DNA from: Geopsychrobacter sp.
GTDB lineage: Bacteria; Desulfobacterota; Desulfuromonadia; Desulfuromonadales; Geopsychrobacteraceae
Assembly: GCA_012974425.1 (NCBI GenBank)
Contig: JAAXQE010000138.1
Coordinates: 1 to 40,911, forward strand
Direction: 5' to 3'
DNA length: 40,911 bases
A model generated the notes under the pieces. It ran no database searches and was not told where the DNA came from. It saw only the letters and a program-made list of their open reading frames with translations. This document shows, piece after piece, positions 7,542 to 13,435 of the stretch; position 1 is the stretch's first letter; each line of letters starts with the position of its first letter. Made by a program: the position numbers and the translations under genes.

Positions 7542-7572
7542 CCAGAGGCACCCCAAATAAGGATATTTGCCA

Positions 7573-9120
7573 ATGAGCGAGCTCCATAAAACCCTGAGCC
7601 GCTGTGACGCCTACCCTGCGGAGACCAGCCAGGTTGAGCATATAGAAACCCACATTTCTCACCTCTACCTGACTGACAATCTGGTCTACAAAATCAAAAA
7701 AAATGTCGATTTCGGCTTCTGTAACTTTACCAATCTCGATCGGCGGCGCTTCTACTGTGAGGAGGAGGTCAGACTCAACAGGCGCCTGGCGCCGATCAGC
7801 TATCTGGGGGTGAGCAAGATTGTCCGTCAGGGTGATCGATTACTCATCGATCAGCCGGGAGAGATTTATGACTACGCGGTGCGCATGCGCCGGCTTCCGC
7901 AGAATCTGATGTTATCCAGCCTACTCGCGGACAACAGTCCGCAGATGGACCTGCCCCAGCATATCGAAACCGTTGCCAAAACCCTTGCCCACTTCCATGA
8001 GACTGCCCTAAAGATAAAAAAGTCGACCCATAACGCCCACAAATCGATGATCACTTTCTGGCATCAGAACTTCGAACAGACCCGCAACTGTTCTGACAAT
8101 CTGATCTGGCCGGACAGTTCTGAAACCATAGAACAAATCGTCATGCAGTTTATGGATAAGAATATCGAACTCTTTAACCGGCGGCAGGATCTCGGCTATG
8201 TTCGCGATGGTCATGGCGACCTGCACTGTGAACATATCTGCCTGACCAAACCGCTCGAGATATTCGATTGTATCGAATTCAATCCGGATCTGCGCTATGG
8301 CGACATCCTGAACGATATTGCCTTCCTCTATATGGATCTTGAATTCCGCCGCCGCAGCGATTTGGCCCTAGGTCTCTGGCAGAGCTATCAAAACAATATT
8401 GAGACTGGAGCACAAGCCGAGACTCTGCTCCGTTTTTACTGTCTCTACCGGGCATGGGTACGCGCCAAGGTGCACTTTTTTCAGATTGAGGCAACGGGAG
8501 ATGCTGCCGAACATCGCTACCAGTCTCGAGAATATTTTCGTCTGGCCAGCAGCTACGCCCTGCCACAGATGCTCCTGGTCTGCTGTGGCCTGATCGGAAG
8601 CGGCAAGACAACCCTGGCTCAAGACCTCGGCGCGGCGCTTCGCGCCCCGCTAATCAGCAGCGATCAGACCAGACCGAAGGCCCGGAAGATCTGGGCGAAC
8701 TCAGCATATGCCCAGGGTCGCTATAGCCAAAAAGCACGCCTTGCTGTCTATCACATGCTGGCCGCGCAGGTTGAAAACAGAATACCGCAAGGCAGAACCC
8801 TGATCCTGGATGCAACCTGCGAGACTCAAGCGATGCGCAGGATTTTTGCTGAGCTTGCCACGCGCATGGCTATCCCCTGCTATTTCATTGAAGCCAGTTG
8901 CGACCCAGCACTGATCCGCGCACGCCTTCAGAAGCGCTCAACAGACCCGCAAAAAGCCGGTGGTTCCGAAGCCGGACTCGAGCATTTCGAATCTCAGCGC
9001 CTCAGATTTGAGCCCTTAAATTCTGAAGCGCGTAGAATACGCGTCGAAACTGGCCAACCCCGCGAATATAATGTAGACTTTCTACTAGATAGGCTTCTAC
9101 AAACTTGCGGGACGCTGTAA
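7573..9120 (+). CDS. Fused aminoglycoside-phosphotransferase-like kinase and P-loop (AAA_33) kinase
   Basis: Soluble two-domain protein of 515 residues. Residues about 1-320 form an APH-like kinase fold: a lysine-bearing start (LVYKIKKNVDFGF), the catalytic loop RDGHGDLHCEHICL and the metal-binding region IEFNPDLRYGDILNDIAFLY. Residues about 330-510 form a P-loop kinase domain with the Walker A motif GLIGSGKTTLA and a LILDAT segment. The fusion corresponds to the COG2187 + COG0645 pairing; its substrate is unknown to me. The ATG at 7573 has AAGGA nine bases upstream; a TTG two codons earlier is too close to that site. Its stop is immediately followed by the start of the small membrane protein (TAATG), so it is the first gene of the partner-switching operon. 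Confidence 0.9.
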   Translation: MSELHKTLSRCDAYPAETSQVEHIETHISHLYLTDNLVYKIKKNVDFGFCNFTNLDRRRFYCEEEVRLNRRLAPISYLGVSKIVRQGDRLLIDQPGEIYDYAVRMRRLPQNLMLSSLLADNSPQMDLPQHIETVAKTLAHFHETALKIKKSTHNAHKSMITFWHQNFEQTRNCSDNLIWPDSSETIEQIVMQFMDKNIELFNRRQDLGYVRDGHGDLHCEHICLTKPLEIFDCIEFNPDLRYGDILNDIAFLYMDLEFRRRSDLALGLWQSYQNNIETGAQAETLLRFYCLYRAWVRAKVHFFQIEATGDAAEHRYQSREYFRLASSYALPQMLLVCCGLIGSGKTTLAQDLGAALRAPLISSDQTRPKARKIWANSAYAQGRYSQKARLAVYHMLAAQVENRIPQGRTLILDATCETQAMRRIFAELATRMAIPCYFIEASCDPALIRARLQKRSTDPQKAGGSEAGLEHFESQRLRFEPLNSEARRIRVETGQPREYNVDFLLDRLLQTCGTL

Positions 9121-9362
9121 TGAAAACGCCTGATTCAACATCAACCCATGAAGCATGGGTGCTCTGCCTGATTCTCGGGATTATCATGCTCAACTTTCCG
9201 TTCTTGCAGATTTTCAATACCGATCGTTCTATTTTTGGCATCCCGATTCTCATCTTTTATTTTTTCATCGGCTGGCCGATCTCAATTCTGGTTATCTTCC
9301 TTTTTGTAAATCGCATGCAGGCCAAAGAGCCTGACAAATCGCGCGATGAGGGGCATAAATGA
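9120..9362 (+). CDS. Small two-helix membrane protein, CbrX/DUF3311-like, coupled to the transporter-phosphatase
   Basis: An 80-residue protein with two hydrophobic segments, about residues 13-32 (around VLCLILGIIMLNFPF) and 38-62 (FGIPILIFYFFIGWPISILV), then a charged tail. The FP...FGIP...GWP pattern resembles DUF3311-type small partners of sodium/solute symporters, and the arrangement resembles the small cbrX gene in front of Pseudomonas cbrA (from memory). Both ends are coupled: the start shares a base with the kinase stop, and the stop overlaps the transporter start in ATGA. Likely role: a small membrane partner or assembly factor of the SLC5 domain, or a translational coupling device. 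The start at 9120 is chosen over a TTG at 9105 lying inside the upstream gene. Confidence 0.85.
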   Translation: MKTPDSTSTHEAWVLCLILGIIMLNFPFLQIFNTDRSIFGIPILIFYFFIGWPISILVIFLFVNRMQAKEPDKSRDEGHK

Positions 9363-12300
9363 TCTCTCCGCTCATCGTTACACTGGTCTCAATCGGCTAC
9401 TTTGCTCTGCTCTTTGGCGTTGCCTATTATGCTGACACAAGGTGTAATTCTGGTCGCAGTCTGATCAACAACCCCTATATCTATTCGCTCAGCCTCGGCG
9501 TCTACTGTACCTCATGGACCTTCTATGGCAGCGTTGGGCTCGCGGCAACAAGCGGGCTCGACTTCCTGCCTATCTATCTGGGACCGACCCTGATCGCCTT
9601 CACCTGGTGGTTTCTGTTACGCAAGATGGTCCGGGTCAGTAAAGATCAGAACATTGTCAGTATCGCCGACTTTATCTCCAGCCGCTACGACCGTTCCTCC
9701 GGACTTGGAGCTCTGGTTACCCTGATCTCAGTCCTGGGGATCATGCCCTATATCGCGCTGCAACTTAAAGCGGTCGCCCGGACATTTGATCTGCTCATCA
9801 GCCCGACAACCGTTGCCGAGGTTGGCCTACAAGACCTCTTCCCCGTTCTGCCTGGCTACGTAGATACGGCATTTGTCATGGCGCTGGTCCTCAGCCTGTT
9901 TGGGGTCCTGTTTGGAGCGCGCCATCTTGACGCTTCGGAGCGCCATGAGGGACTGGTCGCGGCAATCGCATTTGAATCGATTGTCAAGCTGATCGCCTTT
10001 TTAGCCGTTGGCGTGTTTGTGACCTTCGGGCTGTTTGATGGTTTTGGGGATATTTTCAACCGTTTTGCGCAACAGTTTCCAGAACGACTCTCCCTGTTCC
10101 GGCTCGATACGGAGGCGATCCCCTATACCAAGTGGTTTACCCTGACCTTCGCCTCAATGATGGCGATCATGTTTCTACCCCGCCAATTTCACATTATGGT
10201 TACTGAAAATGCGGATGAAAAGCATATCAAGGAGGCCATGTGGCGCTTCCCGGGCTATATGTTCCTGCTGAATATTTTTGTCATTCCAATCGCACTCGGT
10301 GGCTTACTCCTGAACGGTGGTGATACCTCACAGGCCGATTACTTCGTGATTAATCTTCCGCTGGCGGCAGGCCACCCCTGGTTGGCCCTGCTGGTTTTCA
10401 TCGGCGGATTCTCTGCCTCAGCCGGTATGGTCATGGTCTCTTCGATCACCCTGTCGACCATGATCCTCAACCACTTGATCATGCCGCTGATCCTGCGTCT
10501 CAATGTTAACATCAACGATTTTTCAGCGATCTTGATCAACCTCAAACGTTTCGGGATTTTTGCTGTTGTCTTCCTCGGATATTTCTACTACCGGGTGATC
10601 GGTGACTCCTATGCGCTGGCCAATATGGGGTTGATCTCCTTCATTGCTGCATCACAGTTTGCGCCAGCAGTCATCGGCGGACTCTACTGGAAGCGAGCCA
10701 ATAAGAAAGCTGCACTGGTCGGCCTTATCCTCGGGTTTCTCTTCTGGTTCTACACCCTGCTCGTCCCATCCTTTGTCCTGTCGGGCTGGATGGAGAGCAG
10801 CATTCTCGATCTGGGACCCTTCGGCATAGGCCTGCTGCGTCCGCTCCAACTCTTTGGTTTGACCGGTTTCGACATCTGGTCCAATTCTCTGTTCTGGACA
10901 ATGTTCTTCAATCTGGGAGCCTTTCTCGCCTTAAGCTTTTTCTGTAAGCAGAAGTCAGACGAACGTGAGCACGCCTTGCTTTTCGTCGATGCCTATGCAG
11001 AGACACAGGTCCCGGGTCAACGGCGTAGAATCAGCAAGGCACCGACTATCATGGAATTTGTCGAGTTGATGTCGAAATTCATTGGTGAGAAACCGGCGAA
11101 TACTGCAATTACAGCATATCTGCAGGATCAAGAGATCAACAGCAGAGGGAGCATGGCAGACCATGAAGTCCCTGCGCTCAAGGCCTTTACCGAACGAACC
11201 CTGGCCGGTTATGTCGGCGCGGCACCCGCTAAAATTATCCTCGACAATTACCTCTCGACTCGCGGCAGTGAGATGGAGGATGTCTTCGATATTTTCGGTT
11301 CGGTTACCTTAAGCAGAACCGCGAGTCGTGACCAGTTAAGCGTTCTCTACGAAGCGGCTAAGATTGTTTCGCGGGGCAGCGATCTCGACAAAACCCTGAA
11401 CGGCCTGCTGAATTTGCTGATGCAACAATTCAGGTTTGATCTCTGTGTTATCCGCTTTCTCGACGAGCAAGCGATGAGCCTTGTGGTCAGGGCCCAGATG
11501 GGGATGACCAGTACGCATTTTGGCGAGTCCGAACGCAATCTCGACCGGGATACCTATATCGGAACAACCTTCCTGTCGAATACCGCTACGGTCGTCAACG
11601 ACACCGAATATCTCGACAAACTGGAATCTGCACAAATTATCCACCGTGAAAAAATTCAATCGTTCGCACATTCTCCGATCATCGTAGAAGGCGAGCCAGT
11701 CGGTGTCATCTCGGCATTTTCACGTACGTCCAAGGGAATATTTACCGACGAATTCATTGCCCTGCTCAACAATCTGGCGCGTCAGGTCGGAATCGCCTGG
11801 CGGAACCATCAACAACTCGTCAAGCTATTGAGCGCCCGCGAGCAGGAACGCGACCTGGAGATTGCCAAAACAATTCAAAGGAGTCTGCTTCCGGCAGGGA
11901 TTCCGGAACTCAGTAATGTCGACCTCGCCGGGATCTGCGTCCCGACCCATGCGGTCGGTGGAGACTACTACGATTTTATTCGCCGTCCAAACGGTGCGCT
12001 CGATCTGGTTGTGGCCGATGTATCGGGCCACAATATCGGTTCCGCTCTGATCATGGCAGAAACCCGAACATTCATCCAGGCGATGCGTCAGATTGAACAC
12101 CCCTACGCCATGCTCGATGAGCTAAATCGGTTCTTCTGTGAAGACCTTTCCAGAGCCGATCTTTTTGTCACCATGTTCTACCTGCAATACCACCCCCAAA
12201 CGGGGCAATTACTCTATGCCAATGCGGGCCACAACAAGCCCGTCCTCTGGCGGAGTCAATCCGGCACCTGTGAGATGCTCGATGGCGACGGCCTGATCCT

Positions 12301-12613
12301 GGGCATCAAGCCCGATATAGATTTTGAACAACGCGAATGCATCCTCAGCATAGACGACATTCTGGTTCTTTACACCGATGGCGTCACCGAAGCTGAAGAC
12401 CACAATGAAGAGTTTTTTGGCGAGCTTCGCCTGTGTGCGCTGATTGAGGAGTACCATCATCTTGCGGCAACAGAACTGATCGATCAGATCCTGGAACAGA
12501 TCCGTATCTTTACCGGCAACCGTCATTTCATCGACGACGTTACACTCGTCGTGATGAAAGTCATCCATCAGAATTCGTTAAACATTGCGGCAAAGCAACA
12601 AACCATCAAGTAA
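9359..12613 (+). CDS. SLC5 sodium/solute symporter fused to STAC, GAF and SpoIIE/PP2C phosphatase domains
   Basis: A 1084-residue membrane signal protein. Residues about 1-530 form a PutP/SLC5-type transporter with about 13 helices (YCTSWTFYGSVGLAATSGLD; MAIMFLPRQFHIMVTE). Residues about 560-640 match the STAC linker known from CbrA-like kinases (FTERTLAGYVGAAPAKIILD). A GAF domain spans about 657-815, then a short coiled linker with EIAKTIQRSLLP. The output, about 855-1070, is a PP2C/SpoIIE Ser/Thr phosphatase with an intact metal site: GGDYYDF (about 867), VADVSGH (about 885), YANAGHN, YTDGVTEAED (about 1005), DDVTLVV (about 1059). STAS and anti-sigma kinase genes follow. Likely job: sense or import a solute and dephosphorylate the STAS protein. 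CbrA carries a histidine kinase at this position, so the phosphatase output is the notable difference. Ligand unknown. Confidence 0.95.
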   Translation: MISPLIVTLVSIGYFALLFGVAYYADTRCNSGRSLINNPYIYSLSLGVYCTSWTFYGSVGLAATSGLDFLPIYLGPTLIAFTWWFLLRKMVRVSKDQNIVSIADFISSRYDRSSGLGALVTLISVLGIMPYIALQLKAVARTFDLLISPTTVAEVGLQDLFPVLPGYVDTAFVMALVLSLFGVLFGARHLDASERHEGLVAAIAFESIVKLIAFLAVGVFVTFGLFDGFGDIFNRFAQQFPERLSLFRLDTEAIPYTKWFTLTFASMMAIMFLPRQFHIMVTENADEKHIKEAMWRFPGYMFLLNIFVIPIALGGLLLNGGDTSQADYFVINLPLAAGHPWLALLVFIGGFSASAGMVMVSSITLSTMILNHLIMPLILRLNVNINDFSAILINLKRFGIFAVVFLGYFYYRVIGDSYALANMGLISFIAASQFAPAVIGGLYWKRANKKAALVGLILGFLFWFYTLLVPSFVLSGWMESSILDLGPFGIGLLRPLQLFGLTGFDIWSNSLFWTMFFNLGAFLALSFFCKQKSDEREHALLFVDAYAETQVPGQRRRISKAPTIMEFVELMSKFIGEKPANTAITAYLQDQEINSRGSMADHEVPALKAFTERTLAGYVGAAPAKIILDNYLSTRGSEMEDVFDIFGSVTLSRTASRDQLSVLYEAAKIVSRGSDLDKTLNGLLNLLMQQFRFDLCVIRFLDEQAMSLVVRAQMGMTSTHFGESERNLDRDTYIGTTFLSNTATVVNDTEYLDKLESAQIIHREKIQSFAHSPIIVEGEPVGVISAFSRTSKGIFTDEFIALLNNLARQVGIAWRNHQQLVKLLSAREQERDLEIAKTIQRSLLPAGIPELSNVDLAGICVPTHAVGGDYYDFIRRPNGALDLVVADVSGHNIGSALIMAETRTFIQAMRQIEHPYAMLDELNRFFCEDLSRADLFVTMFYLQYHPQTGQLLYANAGHNKPVLWRSQSGTCEMLDGDGLILGIKPDIDFEQRECILSIDDILVLYTDGVTEAEDHNEEFFGELRLCALIEEYHHLAATELIDQILEQIRIFTGNRHFIDDVTLVVMKVIHQNSLNIAAKQQTIK

Positions 12614-12660
12614 ATGCGCTACAATTAAACGCACGAACTCAACAACAAGGAGACATTTAT

Positions 12661-12996
12661 ATGCAACTTAAAACTGAAGAGATCGGTGATATTGTGCTGA
12701 TTCAGATCGAGGAAGAACGGATGGATGCCCACAACAGCGGCACCTTCAAAGAGCAGATGTTGGCTCTGTTCGATGAAGGAAAATGCAAGCTGATCATAGA
12801 CCTTTCGCCAGTCAGATTTGTCGATTCTTCGGGTCTTGGGGCCCTGGTTTCAGGTTTTAAAAACGCCAGCGCACGCGAAGGCAGCCTGAAGCTTTGTGGC
12901 TTGCAACCGCAGGTCCGTTCCATGTTTGAATTGACCCGCCTGCATCGCGTTTTTGAAATTTTTGCTTCGGCCGAAGAAGCACAGGAAAGCTTCTAG
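12661..12996 (+). CDS. STAS-domain anti-anti-sigma factor (RsbV/SpoIIAA-like)
   Basis: A 111-residue cytoplasmic STAS protein. The hallmark phospho-acceptor loop FVDSSGLGALVSG is intact, with the candidate serines at 56 and 57 after Asp55. In partner switching the unphosphorylated form binds the anti-sigma kinase and frees its target; the kinase phosphorylates the serine and a PP2C phosphatase reverses this. Both partners are neighbours here: the SpoIIE domain upstream and the RsbW-like kinase downstream. The ribosome site AAGGAGA is strong, spaced eight bases from the ATG, suggesting higher production than its neighbours. Confidence 0.95.
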   Translation: MQLKTEEIGDIVLIQIEEERMDAHNSGTFKEQMLALFDEGKCKLIIDLSPVRFVDSSGLGALVSGFKNASAREGSLKLCGLQPQVRSMFELTRLHRVFEIFASAEEAQESF

Positions 12997-13012
12997 GGCG
13001 GGCTGACTCACC

Positions 13013-13435
13013 ATGGCTGAGAAGGTCGAAGTCGACATCACCATCCCCAATCACACCCGCTACCTGAGCTTAATAGGGCGCATCGGGGAGGATTTGGTTC
13101 ACTCTCTCGGTCACTATAATGGTGATCGTGAGGAGTTGGCCTATCATCTGAATCTGGTCCTGACGGAAGCGATTACAAACGCAATTTGCCACGCCAACGA
13201 GAGCGACCCGAATAAACAGATCCAGATTCAGATATCGACCTCTGATGAAAACTTAATTATCAAAGTATTTGATGAGGGCGATGGCTTCGATTTTGCCAAT
13301 TTCAAAACCACCGATATGCAGGATACTGATGAATGCGGGCGTGGCATCCACATCATCAATAGACTGATGGATAATGTTAGCTACCACAGAATAAATAAAC
13401 GTAATGTGCTTGAAATGACTAAAAAACTACATTAA
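13013..13435 (+). CDS. RsbW/SpoIIAB-like anti-sigma factor serine kinase
   Basis: A 140-residue GHKL ATPase of the anti-sigma type. The N-box TEAITNAICHAN has Glu52, Asn56 and His60; the G1 box DEGDG (87-91) and G2 box GRGI (109-112) are present, so ATP binding is expected. It has no membrane segment and no histidine-kinase dimer domain. It should phosphorylate the STAS protein encoded 16 bases upstream and hold a target protein inactive. No sigma factor gene is in the window, so the target is unknown; in non-Firmicutes such kinases can control regulators other than sigma factors. The ribosome site is weak, consistent with coupling to the STAS gene. Confidence 0.95.
   Translation: MAEKVEVDITIPNHTRYLSLIGRIGEDLVHSLGHYNGDREELAYHLNLVLTEAITNAICHANESDPNKQIQIQISTSDENLIIKVFDEGDGFDFANFKTTDMQDTDECGRGIHIINRLMDNVSYHRINKRNVLEMTKKLH

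Follow-up and report, generated by a model that had tools for sequence, protein, structure and literature searches.

A probable CbrA-like transceptor with a putative partner-switch output in Geopsychrobacter sp. and its relatives

CbrA-type transceptors are described as rare receptors built on a transporter fold, in which the communication between transporter and output remains open (PMC13022988). The STAC domain is reported to link SLC5 domains "almost invariably" to two-component domains (PMC4834066), and CbrX, a membrane hairpin, is bound to the SLC5 domain of CbrA (PMC13022988). Here we describe a locus in a window of 40,911 nucleotides, which is the whole stretch of DNA analysed, from Geopsychrobacter sp. 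(Desulfuromonadia; Desulfuromonadales). The likeness to CbrA (with CbrX), CrbS/MxtR and RpuS comprises the SLC5 and STAC domains, a lysine at the position of the Na2 site, most pocket positions and, as a candidate counterpart of CbrX, a small overlapping upstream membrane peptide (PMC13022988, PMC6591292, PMC9100948, PMC5715377). However, CbrA-type kinases have a PAS domain, a DHp-CA kinase output and a response regulator as partner, whereas the sensor studied here has a GAF domain and a SpoIIE phosphatase, accompanied by a STAS protein and an RsbW-type kinase.

The output side resembles the RsbU/RsbP-RsbV-RsbW and SpoIIE-SpoIIAA-SpoIIAB switches, having in common with them a SpoIIE/PP2C phosphatase, a STAS protein with a conserved serine and a GHKL kinase, all in one cluster; unlike these switches, it displays a transporter-derived membrane input, and searching the genome turned up no sigma factor of SigB/SigF type. 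In the SiaABCD system of Pseudomonas aeruginosa, SiaB is the kinase and SiaC the STAS protein, whose proposed target is the diguanylate cyclase SiaD. This system resembles ours as a PP2C phosphatase pathway, one answering carbon availability, and differs in relying on threonine phosphorylation (PMC7647112) instead of a serine motif, and in including a diguanylate cyclase, which is absent from the flanks of our gene set in the window (APH-AAA, TPR, HAD and LGT genes). The PP2C fold of SiaA (6k4e) matched the sensor model in Foldseek, and the SiaA family model scored 39.4 bits on the sensor, far below its cut-off of 700. Furthermore, a SMART survey includes actinobacterial SSS + HATPase_c + GAF + PP2C_SIG proteins which, as here, unite transporter, PP2C and GAF in one chain (PMC7918813); these carry HATPase_c in the same chain, whereas in our locus the kinase is a separate gene, and STAC and a STAS gene are present in addition. 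Among the literature matches listed on SLC5/STAC, CbrA, SpoIIE/PP2C and transceptors, an SLC5-STAC-SpoIIE protein is undescribed; an article on STAC (J Mol Biol 427:3327, 2015) lies outside this survey and may mention one. The terms 'symporter', 'SSF' and 'GAF' did not occur in the searchable text of a PP2C survey (PMC12088040), and literature searches for symporter-SpoIIE partner switching, or for RsbW-SpoIIE in Geobacter, returned no match. Papers retrieved for the structure 2QYB were all unrelated.

Architecture of the locus

The features of the locus are as follows:

7567-9120, plus strand: upstream gene, 517 aa, APH and AAA_33 domains (kinase-like fusion)
9120-9362, plus strand: small two-helix membrane protein, 80 aa from the ATG at 9120; candidate CbrX-like SLC5 subunit
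9359-12613, plus strand: SLC5-STAC-GAF-SpoIIE membrane sensor phosphatase, ORF of 1084 aa
9359-10987, plus strand: SLC5 transporter domain, residues 1-543 (10ED alignment, helices in the AF2 model)
11048-11260, plus strand: STAC four-helix domain, residues 564-634 (10ED alignment, AF2 helices)
11378-11800, plus strand: GAF domain, residues 674-814 (E 6.3e-13)
11747-11887, plus strand: single 47-residue helix running from GAF into the phosphatase, residues 797-843 (AF2 model)
11990-12562, plus strand: SpoIIE/PP2C phosphatase domain, residues 878-1068 (E 3.2e-52)
12661-12996, plus strand: STAS protein of anti-anti-sigma type, ORF of 111 aa
13013-13435, plus strand: RsbW/SpoIIAB-type GHKL serine kinase, ORF of 140 aa

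The ORFs agree exactly with the positions given in a preliminary description, which named the sensor gene (9359-12613) and the two genes that follow; its range of 9120-13435 covered these three genes and also spanned a fourth (9120-9362), which it left undescribed. Pfam SSF covers merely residues 46-148 of the sensor (E 3.2e-8), and the solved SLC5-STAC chain of CbrA (10ED) aligns to residues 7-634 (E 9.8e-80), spanning both transporter and STAC. In the AF2 model, residues 4-543 constitute the helical part, for which Foldseek returned SGLT/NIS-type folds. No STAC family model matched the sensor in the family-model searches, and the STAC assignment rests on the 10ED alignment together with four predicted helices (564-575, 577-588, 601-619 and 621-634). 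The 10ED alignment, with the GAF and SpoIIE family matches, bears out the domain order SLC5-STAC-GAF-SpoIIE proposed in the preliminary description and its comparison with CbrA, where the same front end stands on a histidine kinase; of the two domain matches it had asked for, the one to SpoIIE was obtained, while STAC was recovered through the structure alignment. A two-component output (HisKA/HATPase or receiver) is absent, and SpoIIE stands in its place. The SpoIIE metal site is intact, as had been proposed: D869, D887, D1007, D1059 and D1060 are present, and none of the five varies across 45 aligned sequences, among them P0001. Residues 663-832 align to 2QYB, whose title gives it as the GAF portion of a membrane protein from Geobacter sulfurreducens. 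The linkers 550-560 and 635-655 have low confidence in the AF2 model, which is therefore uninformative on coupling between STAC and GAF.

The STAS protein (family match E 4.6e-23) contains a DSSGLG motif whose S56 and S57 are both invariant in an alignment of 17 sequences, Ser57 (or Ser56) being the candidate phospho-acceptor. The kinase matches HATPase_c_2 (E 1.3e-23) and contains E52, N56, H60, DEGDGF and GRGI (N and G boxes). Thus, all the residues formerly listed for a matching STAS substrate and anti-sigma kinase are found in the sequence.

The small protein gene overlaps the sensor gene by four bases (ATGA, stop over start), and its product has two hydrophobic segments, modelled by AF2 as helices at 11-36 and 48-73 of an 85-aa ORF (pLDDT 69). 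Its likeness to CbrX lies in gene position, overlap and predicted membrane hairpin; no sequence match to CbrX was found in a PDB search with a profile of 22 small proteins, which retrieved unrelated membrane proteins only. Pfam gave weak matches of these 22 to DUF3311 (4/22, best 0.0018) and DUF4212 (1/22, 0.0078), which are small partners of SSS permeases; a stronger, unrelated claudin match (1/22, 0.00098) also appeared, and we do not take these matches as proof. NCBIfam matches were scattered and weak.

The stop codon of the upstream APH-AAA_33 gene (9118-9120) shares one base with the small-protein ATG at 9120, and this gene is perhaps part of the same operon; it adjoins the set in many relatives. 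The evidence does not make it a member of the circuit, and it adjoins STAS-RsbW in 4 of 8 loci of the f17 family, where the sensor is missing. Downstream of the kinase, the window carries HAD and Lgt genes on the opposite strand. A scan for promoters and terminators gave no evidence of either (promoter-like, 8 found against 5.4 expected; terminator-like, 3 against 5.4).

Conservation of the gene set and of the SLC5 front end

Of 136 genomes belonging to the order, 119 matched the sensor (E<=1e-60), in some cases through fragments at contig ends. The conserved neighbourhood anticipated in the preliminary description was found, with all four genes together in 82 of the 97 distinct rows of SpoIIE type. 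The 82 do not include the window itself, whose full row had been merged into a cut copy (L002). The full set is found in the named strains Malonomonas rubra DSM 5091 (L170), Pelovirga terrestris (L110) and Geobacter sp. OR-1 (L149). The expectation that STAS and RsbW genes always follow is correct for most rows and fails as a rule: in 9/97 rows (L073, L115, L134, L169, two in L202, L237, L238 and L239), each followed by 1.5 kb or more of sequence, they are not adjacent, and in f17 the pair occurs without the sensor. L160 and L240 also lack them, within downstream sequences of merely 0.9 and 0.5 kb. For the two Deferribacteraceae among these (L160 and L169), a STAS-RsbW pair is located elsewhere in the genome, its RsbW fitting the profile of this family at E 6e-21 and 1e-36; the second STAS-RsbW pair of our own genome fits less well (1.5e-10). 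Apparently separated sensor and phosphatase halves in G022, G023 and G024 were rejected, as these halves lie at contig ends.

In the f17 family, both the small protein and the sensor are missing while STAS-RsbW is kept at the same site in 8/8 loci, and therefore the sensor would be an input module attached to a core switch, exchangeable and not necessarily the sole one. These genomes (8 examined) contain 2-5 other SpoIIE genes each, so the pair could have partners other than the sensor phosphatase. In the G523 phylum group, two of the three Desulfuromonadales-type copies, probably transferred between phyla, adjoin STAS-RsbW, and 11 of 13 further loci display the sensor without STAS/RsbW in the available stretch.

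On histidine kinases, the SLC5-STAC front end occurs mostly outside the class, with a predicted pocket much alike and the small protein often present; three kinase-type relatives that were scanned contain two-component output domains. A small-protein homologue adjoins 91/97 SpoIIE-type and 25/45 kinase-type SLC5 rows, none being found in the other 20/45. Sensor K210 (9986-9988) aligns to K196, the lysine that occupies the Na2 site of CbrA, and it is kept in 63/64 SpoIIE-type and 42/45 kinase-type rows. Sodium coupling is therefore doubtful: of the sodium/solute-symporter domain previously proposed, the SLC5 fold stands by the 10ED alignment, and sodium/solute symport as its mechanism does not sit easily with a lysine at that site. 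The conservation of K210 and of the pocket columns also suggests that the SLC5 domain is under selection whatever the output. Quick trees needed 2 changes of output type, and a single clade of SpoIIE types was not rejected (AU p 0.70 with 21 rows, 0.75 with 31 rows), consistent with one or two origins of the fusion. The first tree was thinned from 141 rows to 109, and the two AU-tested trees had 47 and 57 rows after dropping near copies and 13 distant, partly long-branched kinase-type rows; in the 57-row tree, 3 of 13 new G523-group rows were dropped as near copies. The window's own protein, collapsed into the omitted L002, is represented in the trees by near relatives such as L008.

Proposed circuit and alternative explanations

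We call this arrangement a CbrA-like transceptor with a partner-switch output, and we infer that it works as a phosphatase of the transceptor type that provides the input to a partner switch, a reading to which we assign a probability of about 0.7. The SLC5 domain would bind, and perhaps carry, a small solute, and its conformation would be passed through the STAC bundle beneath it to GAF, from which a single long helix would relay it to the SpoIIE phosphatase, whose activity would thus depend on the state of the solute; a dimer-driven helical switch is known to activate a SpoIIE-type PP2C (PMC5468089). GAF might add a second, cytosolic signal. The active phosphatase would strip phosphate from the neighbouring STAS protein, its presumed substrate, and the bare STAS protein would bind the RsbW-type kinase and free whatever the latter holds, until rephosphorylation by RsbW resets the system. 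The small upstream protein would contact the SLC5 domain as a subunit, as CbrX does on CbrA.

GAF is a usual sensor domain ahead of SpoIIE, and it could be the real sensor here, leaving SLC5-STAC only as a membrane anchor or independent transporter with no coupling from solute to phosphatase; the continuous GAF-to-phosphatase helix of the AF2 model would suit such a design. Physical contact between SSS and kinase in CbrA also seems dispensable for transport and signalling, although the SSS modulates the kinase (PMC7918813). We nevertheless consider an anchor-only or uncoupled SLC5-STAC unlikely, as SpoIIE-type and kinase-type proteins alike preserve the pocket columns and the Na2-site lysine, and the small protein, needless for a mere anchor, is kept with the sensor and lost with it in f17. 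Even more improbable, in our judgement, is that the neighbours are an old operon and the phosphatase works exclusively on a different STAS protein. The sensor-less f17 loci with their other SpoIIE genes agree with this, as do the genome's five SpoIIE genes over the cut-off, compared with only two places where a STAS gene lies beside a standalone HATPase_c_2 kinase, and the extra, unpaired sensor copies in genomes that also have a paired copy (G044, G069, G123, G124 and G160); however, adjacency in 82/97 rows, and in two of the three copies of the probable inter-phylum transfer, argues against it. Several phosphatases sharing one switch would fit the transceptor reading, whereas exclusive action elsewhere would not.

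The circuit had been called complete, which overstates the case: no target was found beside the gene set, no same-strand gene consistently follows RsbW among the loci of named relatives, and the sigma70-family search of the genome yielded four genes, RpoD, RpoS-like, ECF and FliA, with no SigB/F/G type over the cut-off, a negative to be read with caution in an assembly of 327 contigs where RpoH, too, went unmatched. It is a serious possibility, slightly short of an even chance and compatible with the transceptor reading, that the switch acts on something other than a sigma factor, with STAS or the kinase directly controlling another effector on the model of SiaC-SiaD. This would accord with the sigma factors just listed, with the STAS protein being more conserved than the kinase (mean column identity 73% against 64%, 17 sequences each), as if it had more partners, and with a sigma factor table of G. 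sulfurreducens and G. metallireducens in which no SigB type appears (PMC2700814). Conversely, the best family matches of kinase and STAS are anti-sigma and antagonist families, the switch could be aimed at FliA or at the RpoS-like factor, and the TPR, HAD and Lgt genes flanking most loci offer no obvious effector, the neighbours of relatives having been scanned in part. Co-occurrence with RpoS is uninformative because TIGR02394 finds a match at E<=1e-85 in 130/136 genomes of the order, those of f17 among them, RpoD matches it too, and no match passes the cut-off.

Implications for the Desulfuromonadales and related groups

As the same kind of receiver is found on a different class of enzyme, the point of the swap indicates which part may transmit the signal. 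The GAF domain of the Geobacter sp. OR-1 sensor matches 2QYB with 236 bits over 178 residues; thus, 2QYB may be the structure of part of an orthologue. On a broader and tentative reading, which we regard as possible rather than likely, SLC5-STAC(-GAF) with its small subunit would be a general, output-independent solute receiver, one pocket having been wired to histidine kinases by several lineages, whereas Desulfuromonadia and Deferribacterota joined it to a phosphatase, with a partner switch onto a core regulator other than a SigB-type sigma factor (e.g., RpoS-like) and a small carboxylate as ligand. In the predicted sensor pocket, Thr replaces the CbrA Ser in contact with the carboxylate of the ligand, and a few extra sensor copies adjoin carboxylate-related genes, both of which hint at a small carboxylate as the solute.

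Taken together, the set kept in most of the order looks like a real, though still putative, way for a solute to set a gene-control switch via a sensor phosphatase. It would provide a regulatory input, and an unknown partner-switch target to hunt, in metal- and sulfur-respiring bacteria; if the receiver reading is true, a non-sodium transporter fold would report the electron donor to these respirers.

Domain organization of the sensor and its candidate small membrane partner

The three open reading frames of the preliminary description were recovered at exactly the same positions. The sensor, P0001 (9359-12613), is a protein of 1084 aa in which Pfam identified two C-terminal domains:

Pfam domains of P0001
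Residues 674-814: GAF domain
Residues 878-1068: SpoIIE domain

Pfam SSF recognized the transporter part weakly (residues 46-148), and residues 7-634 aligned with chain A of 10ED, which the accessible text of PMC13022988 describes as the Pseudomonas putida CbrXA SLC5-STAC structure. An AlphaFold2 model built on an alignment of 45 sequences (A5; mean pLDDT 81.9) predicts a helical membrane domain followed by GAF and PP2C folds, with four helices at residues 564-634 and a single 47-residue helix at residues 797-843. The best Foldseek rows for this model included SGLT/NIS-type transporters, RssB, the PP2C domains of SiaA and SpoIIE, and 2QYB, with 10ED absent from the best 50. The SpoIIE metal site had been described as intact, and its catalytic residues are present both in the sequence and in the alignment of 45. 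The STAS protein (12661-12996) and the anti-sigma kinase (13013-13435) proposed downstream likewise match their families: S56 and S57 of the former are invariant among 17 sequences (alignment A4), as are E52 and N56 of the latter among 17 (A3), with H60 kept in at least 90%.

The range initially proposed for this circuit began at 9120, which is a real ATG, but one belonging to a separate 80-residue protein and not to the sensor. This ATG shares a base with the stop codon of the gene before it (TAATG), and the small protein's own stop overlaps the sensor start (ATGA). The protein has two hydrophobic segments, predicted as two helices (pLDDT 69), and no Pfam or NCBIfam family match; W18, G25, N30, P32, P47, G56 and W57 (numbering of an 85-aa ORF), among others, are common to 22 aligned small proteins including that of the window. 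According to the portions available of PMC6591292 and PMC13022988, respectively, CbrX (~58 residues) overlaps cbrA and is translationally coupled to it, and is a helical hairpin bound to the SLC5 domain of CbrA that is dispensable for growth on histidine. Since the overlap and the predicted hairpin are shared and a search for sequence homology found none, the likeness to CbrX is restricted to position and shape. An APH and AAA_33 fusion gene (7567-9120) is perhaps co-transcribed with the cassette; it adjoins the cassette in many relatives and was not found beside it in others.

Conservation, probable sensor loss and probable transfer of the cassette

P0001 matched 43 of the family's 44 genomes at E<=1e-20, though other SpoIIE proteins also pass this threshold, and, at E<=1e-60, 119 of the 136 genomes in the order, some of them through contig-end fragments only. 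An even sample of the phylum gave matches in 78 of 395 genomes at E<=1e-80; among the matches listed outside the class, the alignment stops at or before residue 840. The RsbW profile matched 132 of the 136 genomes of the order (E<=1e-8).

It had been asked whether STAS and RsbW genes always follow the sensor. Within 1.5 kb they do so, together with the small protein, in 82 of 97 SpoIIE-type rows (relatives with phosphatase output, distinct by their last 400 residues), but not in all. The 15 incomplete rows comprise L002, a truncated copy that absorbed the complete row of the window itself; five with <1 kb downstream (L027, L035, L108, L160, L240); and nine lacking both genes despite at least 1.5 kb downstream (L073, L115, L134, L169, two in L202, L237, L238, L239). 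The small protein adjoins the sensor in 91 of the 97 rows, and in 57 of those 91 the two genes share the ATGA overlap. Extra sensor copies come from G044, G069, G123, G124 and G160, genomes each also holding a copy that adjoins RsbW. The two sensor genes of L202 flank a DUF3482 GTPase gene and are separated by 4.7 kb, and the sensor gene of L240 is near a contig end. An in-frame stop breaks the sensor gene at L062:1489-4701 (G105), either a pseudogene or a sequencing error, and a locus labelled Chloroflexi bacterium (L097, JADFVC010000026.1), 68% identical to the window's sensor and with the usual neighbours, is probably mislabelled.

The 17 genomes of the order without a match were G013, G035, G057 and all 14 of one family (f17). 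The RsbW profile matched 13 of these 14 (best E 1e-50 to 1e-59), and STAS and RsbW occupied the usual site in all eight loci examined (L247-L254), flanked by a TPR gene on one side (plus APH-AAA in 4/8) and by HAD and/or lgt on the other; TPR, HAD and LGT genes were also identified in the window. Profiles for the small protein, SLC5, GAF and SpoIIE gave no match in this stretch in any of the eight; eight f17 genomes carry 2 to 5 other SpoIIE genes each. Because Geobacteraceae outside the order also carry the set, loss would be the simple reading of the sensor's absence. From this pattern, the small protein and the sensor are gained or lost as one unit, and STAS-RsbW is the core.

In a 109-row SLC5-STAC tree, a single clade (SH-aLRT 100) unites 62 of the 64 SpoIIE-type rows, the two outside it being from Deferribacteraceae. 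In the phylum group to which G523 (source of L169) belongs, 17 of 50 genomes encode a full-length relative. All 13 loci examined there have the small protein and two (L273, L274) an adjoining STAS-RsbW pair, the flank at L267, L271 and L272 being only ~1.5 kb; the genomes of L160 and L169 have a related pair elsewhere. L273-L275 carry a Desulfuromonadales-type sensor, with STAS-RsbW adjoining in two of the three, and nest inside the Desulfuromonadia clade (SH-aLRT 99-100), which suggests lateral transfer between phyla.

Kinase-type relatives and the predicted pocket

Behind the same front end, three scanned kinase-type relatives have GAF-HisKA-HATPase, one with added receivers. Among 45 kinase-type rows, assigned by profile and mostly from outside the class with a few extra genes inside the order, the small protein lies upstream in 25 and STAS/RsbW beside none. 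In L159, L161, L163 and L165 the relative is followed by genes of ~130 and ~355 aa (judged partly by eye), the former a receiver in L159 and the latter REC-HisKA-HATPase in L159 and L165.

Pocket residues were mapped by hand from the 10ED alignment and the CbrA residues named in the accessible text of PMC13022988: Y51, S53, W55, A56, Y75, K196, F248 and F406 correspond to Y49, T51, W53, T54, Y73, K210, S266 and F428 of P0001. These columns are much alike between 64 SpoIIE-type and 45 kinase-type rows, respectively: T51 is Thr in 63 and 33, with Ser in 10 of the kinase type; S266 is Ser in 57 and 33, with Ala in 12 of the kinase type; and K210 is kept in 63 and 42. In CbrA, that same text reports, the lysine occupies the Na2 site and no sodium is required for transport; the same would be likely for P0001.

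Candidate target, solute and precedents

The own genome gave six SpoIIE matches, five above the cut-off, and a standalone HATPase_c_2 kinase adjoins STAS at two places, this cassette and contig C318. The C318 genes, a second partner-switch set of this genome (L193:6560-9380), comprise Cache-HAMP-SpoIIE, HATPase_c_2 and STAS genes, and adjoin AcrB-type (ACR_tran) and HlyD-type genes. The sigma70-family matches were RpoD, an RpoS-like protein below the curated cut-off, ECF and FliA, with none of SigB/F/G type; assembly or search may miss some, as RpoH also gave no match. Among the extra sensor copies whose surroundings were scanned, neighbouring genes encode DctP/DctM (L115), DctP and acetyl-CoA hydrolase/transferase (L134), FAD-oxidase (L239) and aldehyde oxidoreductase (L202), but also universal stress protein (L238) and, again in L202, GTPase-DUF3482 and an MFS protein. 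As these loci were hand-picked without a control, they give only a hint that the solute is a carboxylate.

By itself, a new sensor on PP2C does not amount to a new type of system, since more than 1500 architectures contain PP2C domains (PMC5468089, available portion) and actinobacterial SSS proteins with PP2C_SIG are mentioned in the accessible part of PMC7918813. In a limited literature search of partial texts, no published description of an SLC5-STAC-SpoIIE partner-switch set was found. What is unusual is that a transceptor unit comes together with STAC, a small partner and a conserved partner switch, and that such a unit is found with kinase as well as phosphatase outputs.
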